Of a stretch of DNA of 36,991 nucleotides, positions 2,473 through 27,775 are shown one piece after another. The notes below the pieces were generated by a model that worked only from the letters and a program-made list of their open reading frames with translations, did not search any database and was not told the DNA's origin. Source of the DNA: Mariniblastus sp. (lineage in GTDB: Bacteria; Planctomycetota; Planctomycetia; Pirellulales; Pirellulaceae); NCBI GenBank assembly GCA_029247405.1, contig JAQWLH010000255.1, positions 1 through 36,991 on the forward strand, written 5' to 3'. The stretch's first letter is position 1, and every line of letters begins with the position of its first letter. The translations under genes were made by a program, and so were the position numbers.

Positions 2473-3434
2473 TATCGACCTCCCACTTGCACGGCCCGCT
2501 TGACCGATCGGCCACGATGAGCACGTGCCTGCAACAGGTCAAACAAAGCTACTTCTAAGGGTTGATCCGTTCTAATTTGGAAATAATCAACTCCGAGCTG
2601 GTCACACGTTTTTTTAATCGCTGTTTCATGCTCGTCGAAACCCAGCTTGTAATTCTCGACCGCAGTCTGCGGATCAACGTAAATTTCTTTCCCTGTTTCG
2701 AGGTCTCGGAACATCGTGGCCCGATCGAATTTAAAATCAATCTCGGCAGGATCGAGCGTGCGCAGAATTACAACATCGTGTCCGCGCGAGCGCAAGTAAC
2801 CAAGATTCTTTTCCAACTGTTCGACCGGCGCCAGCAAATCAGAAATCAAAACAACCAGCCCCCGTTTGCTGACGGTTTGAGCAATCTGAGCTAACGGCGC
2901 TGCTAAATCGGTCGAGTTTCCCGAAGTCGCGCGCTCCAAAGTCATCATCAACCGCCGCAGATGACCGGCTCGGTATCGAGGAGGAACCAGATCCAGAATT
3001 CCCTCGCCAAACGTTAGAACTCCGACCGCATCTCGCTGATGATTCAAGAACCAAGCCAACGTCGCGGCCATTGTTTTGGCATATTCTGCTTTACTAAACT
3101 CAAGCGTGCCGAACCCCATCGACTGACTCATGTCCACCAGCAAATAACACCGGAGATTTGTTTCGTCTTCAAAGCGTTTAATGTAGTAACGATCGCGTCG
3201 AGCAAACAGTTTCCAGTCGAGATATCGCAGATCATCGCCCACCGAATATTGACGATAGTCAGTGAACTCGACGGAAAATCCGTGATAGGGGCTGCGATGA
3301 AGCCCAGACAAAAACCCTTCAACGACAATTTTGGCGCGCATCTCGAGGTTCTTGATACGCATAATGGTCTCAGGTGAAACGCCGGAGACTTGGCGATTGG
3401 CTGGAGTTTCGGTACTTGGTTGGATTTCTGACAA
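2472..3434 (-). CDS. DUF58 domain protein (von Willebrand A-like)
   Basis: The 320-residue protein has the DUF58 signature in its first third, with GDDLRYLDWKLFARRDRYYI at about residues 67-86, followed by a von Willebrand A-like fold whose metal motif DMSQS lies at residues 101-105. No signal peptide or membrane helix is seen, so it is probably cytoplasmic. DUF58 proteins regularly lie between MoxR and BatA genes, as here, and are presumed partners of the MoxR ATPase. The frame opens at a TTG (3434..3432); an internal ATG at residue 25 is an alternative start, but upstream residues are plausible coding sequence and a GGAAG lies about 12 bases before the TTG. A 189-base gap separates it from moxR. 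Confidence 0.92.
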   Translation of the reverse strand: MSEIQPSTETPANRQVSGVSPETIMRIKNLEMRAKIVVEGFLSGLHRSPYHGFSVEFTDYRQYSVGDDLRYLDWKLFARRDRYYIKRFEDETNLRCYLLVDMSQSMGFGTLEFSKAEYAKTMAATLAWFLNHQRDAVGVLTFGEGILDLVPPRYRAGHLRRLMMTLERATSGNSTDLAAPLAQIAQTVSKRGLVVLISDLLAPVEQLEKNLGYLRSRGHDVVILRTLDPAEIDFKFDRATMFRDLETGKEIYVDPQTAVENYKLGFDEHETAIKKTCDQLGVDYFQIRTDQPLEVALFDLLQARAHRGRSVKRAVQVGGR

Positions 3435-17470: not shown

Positions 17471-18487
17471 TTAGTAATCCAGAACAACTCGCCCGTCAGC
17501 CATGGCTGCTAATTGCTCAAACGCCTCGATGGCCAAGTTATCACTTAGATAATGTGCGGAACCATCTGCCAGACAAACATTGGCGCCTTGGGGATGATCG
17601 CTCGAAGCAAGTCCTTGTGGAGTACGACGCCCATTGACGCCCCAGTCCAACGCATTGAGGTTGTACACAACACCAAGATTGGCTGCCTCAACTCCTCGCT
17701 CCTGACCATTGGAAGCGCCGTTGGCATAGGTGTTATTTTTACCCAGAAAGCCAGCCCAGATGGCACCAAAAGATACGCGAGGGTTCGGATGCCCTGACTC
17801 AGCTTCGGTGCGACTGCTTCTTTCACCAAGCAGAATAATGTTGCTGGAACCATCTGCCATCGCAGAAAAAGTAGTTCGCGAGTTTCGTGACAAAGGGCCC
17901 CAGTCTTTCGCATTGGAAGTTCGAGCAGATTGATAAATCCAACAGGCTCCCGCGTTGCCAACATAGTTGGAAGCGCCGTAATAGGCAGGCACCAGGTTCT
18001 TGTGTGTGTAGTTAGAGTTAGTGGTACCCTTCGGATCGCTGGGACAATTAAACATTGGGATTTCGTAGGACCCAAGAGGTTTTCCCTCGTTGTCCGTTTT
18101 TAGCCACCAATGGTCATTAAAACTATTGGTCTTTGATGAAAACAGATCATGGAGATTGTTCTGTTCAGCAAAGGGCAAAATATAGACTCCCCAGGCAATC
18201 CACCGGCCTTGGTTGGCATTGCTTGGGCGAGGTGTCACCGGAAGCCCATTATTTCCCCGCACACCGACCTTATTTCGATTCACCCCAGGCGGAAACTCCT
18301 GATGGGCACTTTCGTAATTCATCATCGCCAACCCAAGCTGACGCACATTGTTTGAGCAAGCCGCTCGGCGGGCTGCCTCGCGAACCTGTTGTACTGCAGG
18401 AAGGAGCATTCCGATGAGGATGCCAATAATGGCGATCACCACGAGCAACTCGACTAGCGTAAAACCCCGATGCCTTTTCTTTATCAC
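17471..18487 (-). CDS. DUF1559 protein with type IV-pilin-like N-terminus
   Basis: The 338-residue protein starts with a class III prepilin signal: a short basic leader, then G/FTLVELLVVIAIIGILI with cleavage expected after the Gly at position 8 and Glu at +5. The mature protein continues with LLPAVQQVREAARRAACSNN and the DUF1559 domain, ending with the family's SDHPQGANVCLADGSAHY motif. DUF1559 proteins are hugely expanded in planctomycetes and are thought to form pseudopilus-like or surface structures. The start is GTG at 18487, supported by GGAG six bases upstream. The gene and its lipoprotein partner are inserted between efflux adaptor and pump genes, in opposite orientation. Confidence 0.93.
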   Translation of the reverse strand: MIKKRHRGFTLVELLVVIAIIGILIGMLLPAVQQVREAARRAACSNNVRQLGLAMMNYESAHQEFPPGVNRNKVGVRGNNGLPVTPRPSNANQGRWIAWGVYILPFAEQNNLHDLFSSKTNSFNDHWWLKTDNEGKPLGSYEIPMFNCPSDPKGTTNSNYTHKNLVPAYYGASNYVGNAGACWIYQSARTSNAKDWGPLSRNSRTTFSAMADGSSNIILLGERSSRTEAESGHPNPRVSFGAIWAGFLGKNNTYANGASNGQERGVEAANLGVVYNLNALDWGVNGRRTPQGLASSDHPQGANVCLADGSAHYLSDNLAIEAFEQLAAMADGRVVLDY

Positions 18488-21989: not shown

Positions 21990-24663
<2,674 letters not shown>

Positions 24664-24713: not shown

Positions 24714-24748
24714 AATGCTCGTCAACACAAAGTTGGCGGGCATTTTTT
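24714..24748 (+). terminator. Rho-independent terminator after katG
   Basis: AATGCTCGTCAAC (24714-24726) pairs with GTTGGCGGGCATT (24732-24744) over 13 positions including two G-U pairs, with a five-base loop. The stem's last two Ts run on into four more (24745-24748). It begins 51 bases after the katG stop and isolates katG from the riboswitch operon. Confidence 0.85.
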
Positions 24749-24851
24749 GTCTACCGACAGTCTGAGAGCGGTTGTAATCTCAAGTGTAATTTACCGTGGA
24801 TAGCTCCACGGATAGACGCTGTCGAAATTGGCAAGTAAACTGTTGTCGTTA

Positions 24852-25030
24852 TTTTGGTGACCGCTGCGAAGCGTTTCGAGCGGTTAAAGGGAATCCAGTG
24901 TGATTCTGGAACGGCCCCGCCGCTGTAATCGGTCAAAAATCATCTCACTCTGTTAAACCATTGTCGGGCCATTCGCTTGCCTGATGAGAAGGTAGATTTG
25001 ATTGGCCGAGAGTCAGAATACCTGCCAAAA
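24852..25030 (+). ncRNA. Cobalamin (B12) riboswitch aptamer
   Basis: The sequence matches the class I cobalamin aptamer at all its conserved blocks. It has a P3 hairpin ACCGCT/AGCGGT (24860-24865, 24879-24884), TTAAAGGGAA (24884-24893), and the P4 stem TCCAG/CTGGA around GTGTGATT (24894-24910). Next come CGGCCCCGCCGCTGTAAT (24912-24929, the B12-box region), GAGAAGG (24986-24992) and GAGTCAGAATACCTGCC (25010-25026). TTTTGG (24852-24857) can close P1 with CCAAAA (25025-25030). It sits in the leader of the downstream DUF1559, DUF4465 and hydrolase genes and should repress them when adenosylcobalamin or another corrinoid is abundant. The upstream katG terminator excludes readthrough control. Identification is by recognition of consensus, not by a covariance search. 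Confidence 0.93.
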
Positions 25031-25039
25031 AGAAACTAG

Positions 25040-25070
25040 CGACATTGTTTTGCGAGGGACAAACAAGTCG
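25040..25070 (+). promoter_or_regulatory. Riboswitch expression-platform hairpin with kissing loop
   Basis: CGAC (25040-25043) plus TTGTTT (25045-25050) pair with AAACAA (25061-25066) plus GTCG (25067-25070), with a single bulged A. The 10-base loop contains GCGAGGG (25052-25058), complementary to CCCCGC in the aptamer L5 (24915-24920) apart from one bulged A. This is the loop-loop contact of class I cobalamin riboswitches. No T-tract follows and the start codon is 16 bases away, so control is likely translational. Confidence 0.7.
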
Positions 25071-25086
25071 GCAATGATTGATTCAA

Positions 25087-25914
25087 ATGTCAAAAAACAG
25101 CTGCCCCTGTGGTCCGCGGGTAAAACCTGCTTGCTCTAAGCGAGCCTTCACGCTCGTTGAACTGCTAGTGGTCATCGCAATTATCGGCATCCTCCTTGGA
25201 ATGCTGCTTCCCGCAGTTCAGATGGTCCGTGAATCGGCGCGAAGAACCACCTGCGCCAACAACCTCCGCCAACTTGGAATCGGACTGCAAGCGTACCACA
25301 GCGGAATTCAATCTTTTCCCATCGGTGTGACCGAATGGCGCGTCCGGGGCAATCCGACCCAACGACAAATCGCGTGGAGTGCTTACCTGCTCCCTTTCAT
25401 CGAACAACAAAATGTCTTCTCCCGACTTGATCTCAAGACGGCTTTTGACAGCGAGTTCAACAAACCGGCTGCCGCCACCATTCTCCCAGTGTTTATTTGC
25501 CCGACCGGCAAACGTGGCGCCCAAACTGTTCAGGGCCGGGGGCCTACTGATTACGGCGGGATTTATGGCGAACGAATCAATGGCCCCAACAACCCGCCCA
25601 AAGGCACACTCGTCCACAATGTCGCGATTGCTTTGCGAGATATTCGGGATGGTTCTAGCAACACCTTGATTGTGGCAGAAGACACTGGTTGGCCAGATGG
25701 CCAATGGATCAATGGGCGAAATGTTTTTGACCAAGCATTTCCGATCAATCAAGCACCTTCTTTTGAAAATGACATTCACAGTGATCACCCCCAAGGTGCA
25801 AACGGAGCATTTTGTGATGGGAGCGTTCGCTTCCTCTCTGAAAACATGGACCTGATTCCTCTGGCTGCAATTTGCACTCGCGATTCGGGTGATTCAACTA
25901 ATGAGCTGGATTGA
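25087..25914 (+). CDS. DUF1559 pseudopilin-like protein under B12 riboswitch control
   Basis: The 275-residue protein has a prepilin-type signal, KRAFTLVELLVVIAIIGILL, with Ala rather than Gly before the cleavage site; this variant is tolerated in DUF1559 proteins. LLPAVQMVRESARRTTCANN and the DUF1559 domain follow, closing with the family motif SDHPQGANGAFCDGSVRF. It is expected to be anchored in the inner membrane or assembled into a pseudopilus-like structure. ATG at 25087 is preferred over TTG at 25078. No Shine-Dalgarno sequence precedes it, but the GAGGG in the loop of the riboswitch hairpin lies 29 bases upstream. It is the first gene of a three-gene unit (58- and 9-base gaps), so its role is probably tied to corrinoids. 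Confidence 0.9.
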   Translation: MSKNSCPCGPRVKPACSKRAFTLVELLVVIAIIGILLGMLLPAVQMVRESARRTTCANNLRQLGIGLQAYHSGIQSFPIGVTEWRVRGNPTQRQIAWSAYLLPFIEQQNVFSRLDLKTAFDSEFNKPAAATILPVFICPTGKRGAQTVQGRGPTDYGGIYGERINGPNNPPKGTLVHNVAIALRDIRDGSSNTLIVAEDTGWPDGQWINGRNVFDQAFPINQAPSFENDIHSDHPQGANGAFCDGSVRFLSENMDLIPLAAICTRDSGDSTNELD

Positions 25915-25972
25915 GTTCGCTCGGCCGCAAGATTGTTTTTCTTTTCTTCCTTTTCAACTTTGTACTTTTCTC

Positions 25973-26860
25973 ATGAAAATAAAATTCTCAATTCCACTGA
26001 CTCTCGTCGTTTTTCTGTTCGCAACCGCTGCGTTAAATGCTCAAACTTCGGTTGTTTCTTTTGAATCCCTCCCTGTCCCAGGAAGTGGTTTCTTTAATGG
26101 TGACACGGCCGGCGGTTCTCCTTACCGAAATAATTTCACAATCACCGGAACCGGCGCGTTTGGCGAGACATTGCAAACTTGGGAAATGGATTCTCTCGAC
26201 TTTTTCAACAGCTTTGAATCCACTTTCGGTTCGTGGAATGGGTTTAGTTGGTCTAACATCAGTGACAACACTACTCCTGGTTTCACCAACCAGTATGCAG
26301 CCTATCCCGGCGGCGGTAGCGACGGGGCAGGGGGGATGAATCTTAACGAAAATTATACCGTCGCTTTCTCCGACGCCAGTTACTTTAATCTTCCAGAGAA
26401 CACCAGTTTGCAATCCGTTGATCTGACCAACACAACCTACGCAGCGCTCTCGATGGCCAATGGAGATAGTTTCGGAAAAACCTTCGGCGGTGAGTCGGGG
26501 AACGAGGAAGATTTTTTCAAAATCAATTTGGTTGGATATGACCAAGTAGATCGGGGAGGCAATCAGACGGGATCGGTTGAGTTTTTCCTTGCCGATTTTC
26601 GTTTCTCAGATAACAGCCTCGACTACATCCTCAACCAATGGGCCACCGTTGATTTGACCTCCTTGGGGAGCGTTCGGTCGGTCGGAGTAACATTCGCTTC
26701 ATCGGACGTCGGCGCCTTTGGTATCAACACTCCGACCTATTTCGCCATGGACAATTTGACTTTCACGACAACCGCCGTTCCAGAACCCAGCGGTCTGTTG
26801 TTTCTCTGGACCGGTCTCATTACGATCTATTTTCGACGGTCCAAGAAGATCTTAGCCTGA
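25973..26860 (+). CDS. Secreted DUF4465-like protein with PEP-CTERM anchor
   Basis: The 295-residue protein has a signal peptide (MKIKFSIPLTLVVFLFATAA, cleavage near LNAQ), a beta-rich globular domain, and a C-terminal PEP-CTERM sorting tail. The tail consists of VPEP, a hydrophobic helix (SGLLFLWTGLITIYF) and RRSKK, the signal for exosortase processing. The globular part starts VVSFESLPVPGSGFFNG and includes GFSWSNISDNTTPGFTNQYA, a layout I recognise as DUF4465. To my recollection, DUF4465 proteins occur in Bacteroidetes corrinoid-uptake loci and include the B12-binding BtuH proteins; this needs checking. ATG 25973 is chosen because it directly precedes the signal peptide; the frame extends upstream into the DUF1559 gene. 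It is likely surface-exposed. Confidence 0.82.
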   Translation: MKIKFSIPLTLVVFLFATAALNAQTSVVSFESLPVPGSGFFNGDTAGGSPYRNNFTITGTGAFGETLQTWEMDSLDFFNSFESTFGSWNGFSWSNISDNTTPGFTNQYAAYPGGGSDGAGGMNLNENYTVAFSDASYFNLPENTSLQSVDLTNTTYAALSMANGDSFGKTFGGESGNEEDFFKINLVGYDQVDRGGNQTGSVEFFLADFRFSDNSLDYILNQWATVDLTSLGSVRSVGVTFASSDVGAFGINTPTYFAMDNLTFTTTAVPEPSGLLFLWTGLITIYFRRSKKILA

Positions 26861-26869
26861 GGCAATTTC

Positions 26870-27775
26870 ATGAAATTTACAGTTCAACAAGTTGGTTTTG
26901 CAGTGACCTTTATTGCGATGCTCTGCGTCACTCCTCATTTGCGCAGCCAACAAGCACCGGCCAAAGAAACCCAGGTTTACAAAAAAGTTGCTGGTCGAGA
27001 ATTGACCATCCACATCTCAAAACCCAAGCTATGGGATGCCTCTGACTCAAGACCGGCAGTCGTCTTTTTTCATGGAGGCGGTTGGGTCGGTGGCAAACCT
27101 GGCCAATTCGACGCGCACTGTGAGCATCTGACTAAACACGGCTTGGTTTGCTTTCAAGTCCAGTATCGCTTACTGAACAAGCCTGCCAAAAAAAAGCAAC
27201 AGAATGGTCCCCAGGCAGAGAAACCGACGTTAGTCGACCGAACTCCGACGCGTTGTATCCATGATGCCAAATCAGCCATGCGGTGGGTGCGCAGCCGCGC
27301 CAGCGAGTTTGGGATCAACCCGAGTAAAATAGCGACGGCAGGCGGATCAGCGGGTGGTCATTTAGCTGCTTTCCTTGGCACGACCGATGGAACTGATGAC
27401 CCCAACGATGATCAGTCCATTCCCGCGCGTGCCAATGCGATGATTTTATTTAACCCCGTTTACGATAACGGTCCCGGAGGGTGGGGAACCAGCCGAGTCG
27501 GCCAGCGGTTTCAAGAATTTTCACCAGCTCACAACATCTCAAAAGATGATGTACCGTCGATTGTATTTTTAGGGACCAACGACAAACTTATTCCGATCGC
27601 GACAGCACAACGATTCCAACAAAAAATGCAAAGTGTCGGAGTCAAAAGCGATTTAAGACTGTACGCGGGCGCTAGCCATGGCTTTTTCAATACCAACAAA
27701 GAAGACGGCCAGTGGTACCCGTATACGATTGACGAAATGGATGAATTCCTTCGATCTCTAGGCTGGCTGAAATAA
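26870..27775 (+). CDS. Secreted alpha/beta hydrolase (esterase/lipase-like)
   Basis: The 301-residue protein has an N-terminal signal segment (about residues 8-26), then an alpha/beta-hydrolase fold. The oxyanion-hole motif HGGGW is at residues 68-72, the nucleophile elbow GGSAGG has Ser160, Asp238 is in GTNDKLIP, and His270 is in ASHGFF; the triad is complete. It resembles the BD-FAE/carboxylesterase group common in planctomycetes. The start is nine bases after the DUF4465 gene, and GAGG overlapping that stop serves as its ribosome-binding site, so the genes are co-transcribed and probably under riboswitch control. Substrate unknown; a corrinoid-related ester or amide substrate is speculation. 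Confidence 0.9.
   Translation: MKFTVQQVGFAVTFIAMLCVTPHLRSQQAPAKETQVYKKVAGRELTIHISKPKLWDASDSRPAVVFFHGGGWVGGKPGQFDAHCEHLTKHGLVCFQVQYRLLNKPAKKKQQNGPQAEKPTLVDRTPTRCIHDAKSAMRWVRSRASEFGINPSKIATAGGSAGGHLAAFLGTTDGTDDPNDDQSIPARANAMILFNPVYDNGPGGWGTSRVGQRFQEFSPAHNISKDDVPSIVFLGTNDKLIPIATAQRFQQKMQSVGVKSDLRLYAGASHGFFNTNKEDGQWYPYTIDEMDEFLRSLGWLK

Follow-up and report, generated by a model that had tools for sequence, protein, structure and literature searches.

A cobalamin riboswitch, a DUF1559 prepilin-like protein and a DUF4465 protein: a probable corrinoid-scavenging operon in a Pirellulaceae planctomycete

Introduction

Binding of vitamin B12 (cobalamin) has been shown for eight members of the DUF4465 (BtuJ) domain family, one of which comes from Mucisphaera calidilacus (PMC13398666), a planctomycete (title of PMC8882080). 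Here we analyse a DUF4465 gene that lies, together with a DUF1559 gene, behind a cobalamin riboswitch in a 36,991-nucleotide stretch of DNA (the window; contig JAQWLH010000255.1) from a Pirellulaceae planctomycete near Mariniblastus. In our judgement, the locus is quite probably a cobalamin-riboswitch-controlled corrinoid-scavenging operon.

The described systems closest to this locus are BtuJ1 and BtuJ2 of Bacteroides thetaiotaomicron, predicted lipoproteins encoded in operons with btuB and btuG, operon 2 also containing btuFCD; these operons too are under the control of a cobalamin riboswitch (PMC12751083). In the same organism BtuG1 is a fusion of BtuG and BtuH, both halves of which bind cobalamin (PMC12751083). 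The window protein shares with BtuJ1 and BtuJ2 the domain family, the fold and the key tyrosines. However, its tail is PEP-CTERM-like, its gene stands beside a DUF1559 gene, and the search of its genome gave no TonB plug, whereas in a Bacteroides-type Btu uptake locus a TonB-dependent receptor stands beside the binder. 'Pan' of Mucisphaera calidilacus and D5EK51 of Coraliomargarita akajimensis are DUF4465 proteins that bind cobalamin; the text of the paper describing them reports TonB and ABC transporter neighbours for DUF4465, and contains neither 'planctomycet' nor 'PEP-CTERM' (PMC13398666).

DUF1559 (PF07596) has 68 paralogs in Planctopirus limnophila, where it is the largest paralog group, with two essential members and no known function (PMC10632474), and 74 copies in R. 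baltica (PMC2754498). The window gene is a member of this family, in which the operon members form a riboswitch-linked group. In a partial literature collection, we found no link between DUF1559 and cobalamin and nothing joining Planctomycet with 'cobalamin riboswitch'; passages of PMC2667541, which contains Planctomycet, vitamin B12 and riboswitch, do not treat the riboswitch-DUF1559-DUF4465 link. That DUF4465 binds B12, that a riboswitch controls it in Bacteroides and that the family has a planctomycete member is already known; the new part is the DUF1559 partner. A previous reading of the window from sequence only (the sequence-only reading) held that none of the genes behind the riboswitch is a classical B12 gene, a statement now out of date, as DUF4465 is a published B12-binding domain (PMC13398666).

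The riboswitch and its conserved gene order

The full-length aptamer was located by covariance model at positions 24838-25043 of the forward (+) strand, where RF00174 matches from model position 1 to 189 of 189 with 89.9 bits against a gathering score of 31.5 (E-value 3.7e-21). This is the only Rfam match in the window at curated cut-offs, and it confirms the cobalamin riboswitch of the sequence-only reading. Downstream on the same strand follow a DUF1559 gene of the riboswitch-linked subfamily (25087-25914), which has a prepilin-type N terminus and an H-X9-DG motif, the DUF4465 gene (25973-26860), whose product has a signal-like N terminus and a PEP-CTERM-like tail, and an alpha/beta hydrolase gene (26870-27775). 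The listed open reading frames (ORFs) of the first two begin at TTG 25078 and GTG 25889; inspection of the sequence favours ATG 25087 and ATG 25973, with the hydrolase starting from 26870, which leaves 58 bp between DUF1559 and DUF4465 and 9 bp between DUF4465 and the hydrolase. Pfam assigns 25078-25914 to DUF1559 (155.7 bits) with N_methyl and 26870-27775 to BD-FAE/Abhydrolase_3, and with the DUF4465 match given below, all three members of the tight unit described earlier are established. The genome holding the window (G000; G-numbers label genomes and L-numbers loci) is a draft of 4.83 Mb and 83.7% complete, and its single DUF4465 domain and single reported RF00174 match both lie at this locus. 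Among named genomes, the closest DUF4465 protein is that of a Mariniblastus sp. metagenome-assembled genome, with 56% identity; the neighbouring dnaE is 86% identical.

The arrangement was surveyed in 296 genomes of the host's order. PF14717 was found in 108 of these, and merging of adjacent hits turned 131 hits into 117 loci, among them that of the window, at 108 of which simple ORF calling recovered the DUF4465 gene. RF00174 lies upstream on the same strand at 107 of the 117 loci (39 from the listed matches and 68 of 78 by Rfam scan), and six of the ten loci without it have less than about 1.3 kb before the contig end; DUF1559 is upstream of DUF4465 in six of these ten. RF00174 was also present at 14 of 14 named planctomycete loci tested, which were hand-chosen from 46, every one with a DUF1559 hit nearby. 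Cultured relatives that have the module include R. baltica (L307) and Stieleria tagensis (L341). In a six-frame search with a profile built from 34 operon members, DUF1559 stands between riboswitch and DUF4465 at 84 of the 107 riboswitch loci, that is, at 84 of the 85 in which the gap exceeds 1 kb. Because the order riboswitch-DUF1559-DUF4465 recurs in this way, it exceeds chance, and the suggestion that the same gene order follows RF00174 in other planctomycetes is upheld. Two loci, L294 of Zavarzinella formosa (2583-2784 and 2927-3130) and G173:C418, have two divergent cobalamin riboswitches back to back.

The riboswitch match could be genuine and still be non-functional, or it could be part of a read-through unit that has nothing to do with the following genes. 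Several P1 pairs of the RF00174 alignment are non-standard, 24838-25110 folds with an unremarkable minimum free energy (z -1.10), and neither a terminator nor another platform was identified between the aptamer and the first gene. Nevertheless, the riboswitch occupies the same position before the same genes at the 107 surveyed and all 14 named loci, and we regard this explanation as very improbable. As plain folding energy is not unusual, the evidence for the riboswitch consists of the covariance model and its conservation.

The DUF4465 protein as corrinoid binder

The window protein (ORF as listed, 25889-26860) matches PF14717 (DUF4465) with 163 bits against a cut-off of 25. Its sequence relatives in the PDB are all DUF4465 entries, including the B12 complexes 9hmu and 9qpm and BtuJ1 (9fct). 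The AlphaFold model, with a mean predicted local distance difference test score (pLDDT) of 86.6, has the augmented beta-jellyroll fold of DUF4465/BtuJ and reaches template modelling (TM) scores against 9hmu and 9fct of 0.80-0.81 of the target and 0.62-0.64 of the query. In the family, conserved tyrosines in the DE helix and the HI loop (GTPAYF/NTPAY) have a role in B12 contact (PMC13398666). The codon of the DE-helix tyrosine of the window protein, residue 156 counted from ATG 25973, is at 26438-26440 (+) and aligned with the TNTTY stretch of BtuJ1; that of the HI-loop tyrosine, residue 256 in NTPTYF, is at 26738-26740 (+) and aligned with the corresponding HI-loop stretch of BtuJ1. Matching the numbering, we take the two to be the presumable counterparts of BtuJ1 Y146 and Y245, respectively. 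Among the 131 DUF4465 domain hits of the host's order, the DE tyrosine is kept in 114 and the HI tyrosine in 124. The protein ends in a PEP-CTERM-like tail (26777-26857, +) composed of VPEPSG, a hydrophobic helix (residues 274-294 in the model) and the basic end RRSKK; 92 of the 108 called DUF4465 proteins of the order have the letters PEP within their last 45 residues.

Family, fold and both tyrosines support corrinoid capture for the DUF4465 gene, the binding by this particular protein being predicted. The sequence-only reading had proposed a secreted binder, and a secreted-type DUF4465 protein in that role agrees with the published function of the family. Elsewhere in the order, six loci (L071, L072, L073, L075, L078 and L080 in G276, G216, G180, G117, G252 and G113) encode, 3' of a riboswitch and a DUF1559 gene, giant proteins of ~1,080-2,020 aa, in which one open frame contains, or has next to it, two or three DUF4465 domains. 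These are possible multivalent corrinoid binders.

DUF1559 as a dedicated partner

The DUF1559 protein of the window combines PF07596 (SBP_bac_10) with the prepilin and H-X9-DG motifs. PF07596 has 30 matches in the 4.83 Mb of this genome, and therefore chance adjacency to DUF4465 would be rare. A second DUF1559 gene of the window lies on the minus strand at 17471-18487, with no riboswitch found near it in the Rfam scan of the window.

The operon members were compared with paralogs from five genomes in a FastTree phylogeny. Of 102 operon DUF1559s, 100 entered the tree, L068 and L095 being too short or holding X, and 33 of 58 paralog loci passed the filters, which asked for a motif and for 170-460 aa and removed duplicates (13 from G000, 8 from G164, 5 from G230, 4 from G285 and 3 from G017). 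On one side of a branch with local support 90 are 98 of the 100 operon members and none of the 33 paralogs. In the two outliers, L039 and L066, DUF1559 is located more than 2.1 kb past the point where the DUF4465 domain starts. In the reverse direction, the operon-type DUF1559 profile was run against the 296 genomes with at most eight candidates scored per genome, and 150 tabulated matches reached at least 264 bits. A known riboswitch lies upstream of 118 of them. Twenty of the remaining 32 were fetched, and 12 of these 20 have a riboswitch, one at the very cut-off (31.9 bits). In total, 130 of the 138 matches examined have a riboswitch upstream, and three of the eight negatives (L352, L362 and L364) reach the contig end about 300 bp or less upstream.

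Loci from named genomes were taken as the best 80 of 566 by likeness to the window DUF4465, which gave 79 loci, three without a named phylum being omitted. Of the 46 planctomycete loci, 36 have DUF1559 within 2.6 kb of DUF4465 (31 with scores of at least 241 bits, five with 100 bits or less), versus 2 of 30 others, both weak and from Verrucomicrobia. In this similarity-chosen set, the pairing is rare outside planctomycetes. Together, the linkage and the grouping in the tree support DUF1559 as a dedicated, riboswitch-linked partner.

What the partner does is a separate question. DUF1559 might only be a secretion helper for DUF4465, a pseudopilin of the type II secretion kind that neither handles corrinoids nor contributes to their uptake. 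The prepilin N-terminal motif in 30 of 31 scanned members would fit this role, as would the different PEP-CTERM proteins that follow the DUF1559 gene in different genomes, much as expected of a general exporter. However, the subfamily is tied to cobalamin riboswitches (the 130 of 138 above) and to no single cargo, which suggests a B12-specific role, and the 33 genomic paralogs of the tree fall outside it. We consider the helper role a serious possibility, though somewhat short of an even chance. DUF1559 could also bind corrinoid itself, with DUF4465 as a second binder that receives or hands over the ligand. The Pfam name SBP_bac_10 is a solute-binding name, the family is called a solute-binding protein family in PMC2754498, and the operon members form a dedicated group in the tree. 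The family name may, however, be historical, and no meaningful structural match to a known B12 binder was obtained, with BT1487 (BtuK, PMC12751083) appearing only at E 5.8 and worse; we think binding by DUF1559 unlikely. The best PDB fold matches of DUF1559 are type IV pilins over about 57-75 columns.

Other riboswitch units and their PEP-CTERM proteins

A wider sample comprised the 40 best-scoring of at least 70 candidates from DUF4465-negative genomes, with one riboswitch per genome among the matches listed, and 20 further riboswitches of DUF4465-positive genomes. A DUF1559 gene lies within 1.2 kb of the riboswitch in 24 of the 40 and in 9 of the 20. Of those 24 genes, 14 reach 244-390 bits against the operon profile; the other 10, at 94-176 bits, are of a different type. 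In 12 of the 14 operon-type units, a downstream protein has PEP near its end; G267, a DUF4465-negative genome of the same genus, has a riboswitch, an operon-type DUF1559 and then a PEP-CTERM-like protein of 205 aa. Ten PEP proteins from riboswitch loci that were scanned have few or no Pfam domains besides PEP-CTERM.

One group of such proteins, family E, consists of PEP-CTERM proteins from sister operons and is hit on the same strand at 21 of the 117 DUF4465 loci. Its alignment of six sequences (A1) matches residues 391-496 of PDB entry 8blw_B with E 3.2e-5; a related alignment, A2, gave no PDB match. Entry 8blw is presumably the structure of BtuG1 of B. thetaiotaomicron, the BtuG-BtuH fusion. 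The likeness to BtuH/BtuGH of that organism concerns family E of the sister operons; the gene is absent from the window operon. No B12 relative was found for families A and C against the PDB (one member each), and nothing was found there for family B, either with a single sequence or with an alignment. In proteobacterial loci (L288-L290, L313, L321, L327, L330, L334, L339, L340 and L344), a protein matching the B/E profiles is encoded just upstream of DUF4465.

Families A (L233, L238, L239, L241, L249 and L263) and D (L228, L231 and L235), and by eye L368, are PEP-CTERM-like proteins with no known domain. They bear motifs like 'SFADIEFWxGSGxN..ALxIDW', are encoded directly after a riboswitch and DUF1559, and occur in DUF4465-negative genomes or as a second unit; we regard them as candidate new corrinoid binders. 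What is new here is a DUF1559 partner that is dedicated to riboswitch-linked operons and whose PEP-CTERM-tailed binders seem to be exchangeable. We tentatively suggest, as a possibility that we would not yet favour, that planctomycetes have a modular, pilin-based, TonB-independent corrinoid capture, in which a constant chassis of riboswitch and DUF1559 prepilin is combined with interchangeable PEP-CTERM binders of DUF4465/BtuJ type, BtuH type and uncharacterised A/D and NHL-like types.

Five loci (L212, L213, L217, L256 and L257) have a riboswitch, a lower-scoring DUF1559 (98-113 bits) and a small cysteine-pair protein ending like 'CPKTG..', and appear to represent a separate B12-regulated DUF1559 unit. 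At L221, the riboswitch and a DUF1559 gene of 176 bits are followed by cobyric acid synthase CobQ, an enzyme of B12 synthesis. A scan of nine proteins encoded at further riboswitch loci of the order returned, among others, MetE, an NrdA-type reductase, CobQ, a receptor with a TonB B12 receptor as best model, below cut-off, and DUF6580 with a periplasmic binding protein. By their domain matches, these other scanned targets are canonical. A riboswitch-controlled DUF6580 membrane protein is found at L232 and L255 (and by eye L253), followed in L255 by a Peripla_BP_2 protein; the two are possibly a corrinoid transport pair.

Neighbouring genes

Upstream of the riboswitch, katG ends at 24663 and is followed by an intrinsic-terminator-like stem of 13 pairs with a T tail at 24714-24744 (+), which bears out the terminator placed there by the sequence-only reading; the scan returned 8 terminator-like sites in 3.6 kb versus 5.1 in shuffles. 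At L271-L273, a homolog of cusA was detected upstream and none of katG. In these close relatives and in L056, each with a riboswitch, the genes that come after DUF1559 and DUF4465 are orf160 and dnaE, and the hydrolase is missing from this interval (synteny by tblastn in L100-L349, with L056 read from its ORFs). In this species, katG and the hydrolase both seem to have been added.

The sequence-only reading made the three genes behind the riboswitch one system, in which the hydrolase is secreted and frees corrinoids. The hydrolase (BD-FAE/Abhydrolase_3 by Pfam) is indeed co-directional, only 9 bp from DUF4465, and its N terminus looks signal-like by eye. Yet tblastn at 1e-5 found no homolog in the other 116 DUF4465 loci, and the four close relatives keep DUF4465-orf160-dnaE without it. 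We therefore reject the hydrolase as a system member and consider a three-gene system hardly credible; the lineage-specific gene is judged a passenger, probably a recent insertion without a conserved role at the operon.

Proposed mechanism and implications

In the mechanism that we propose, low intracellular cobalamin would permit expression of the operon, as expected from the riboswitch family. The DUF4465 protein would be secreted, anchored at the envelope by its PEP-CTERM-like tail, and would bind corrinoid through the conserved aromatic loop pocket, a function published for the family and consistent with the computed fold and residues. The DUF1559 prepilin-like protein would most likely serve in the envelope or in a pseudopilus, exporting or displaying the binder or moving it across the outer-membrane region, in a cell without a detectable TonB plug. 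Dextran is bound by pili-like fibres of planctomycetes, whose periplasm macromolecules enter by unclear mechanisms (PMC5394234); these observations make a pilin-type capture part plausible.

No TonB Plug domain was found in this 83.7% complete genome, and FecCD gave one hit (41.5 bits). In the order as a whole, Plug is present in 105 of the 296 genomes. Mutual exclusion of TonB receptor and DUF4465 was considered and rejected (Fisher p 0.80): the two occur together in 37 genomes, DUF4465 alone in 71 and Plug alone in 68, and 120 have neither.

Several observations weigh against a corrinoid-scavenging operon of this form. At the riboswitch, the terminator scan found no + strand terminator between the aptamer and the first gene, and folding of 24838-25110 gives no clear expression platform, a 3'-flank hairpin having been tried for that role. 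DUF1559 is not between riboswitch and DUF4465 at 23 of the 107 riboswitch loci: it lies within 1.4 kb after in 10, further on in 3, and in 10 the fetched stretch does not contain it. Three of the 20 fetched strong DUF1559 matches (L355, L358 and L359) have more than 2 kb upstream and no riboswitch. The fold of DUF1559 had no PDB match at E 0.001 or better, and the PEP-CTERM tail of the window DUF4465 scores 14.4 bits with TIGR02595, where the cut-off is 16. Finally, no B12 consumer was found in this incomplete genome, in which the B12-binding domain PF02310 appears only below cut-off and the NrdJ model gives a weak hit (5e-16). That model is not to be taken at face value, since it gives 388 and 391 bits, slightly under its cut-off, to two riboswitch-controlled reductases of relatives, both of which pass the cut-off of an NrdA-type model instead.

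A riboswitch-tied DUF1559 subfamily beside a B12-binding domain gives one branch of DUF1559 a likely ligand context and a role that can be tested. The finding bears on how corrinoids enter cells without detectable TonB receptors, and several PEP-CTERM proteins of the sister operons that lack known domains become candidate corrinoid binders. If modular, pilin-based capture proves true, the whole DUF1559 family may consist of ligand-specific envelope capture devices.

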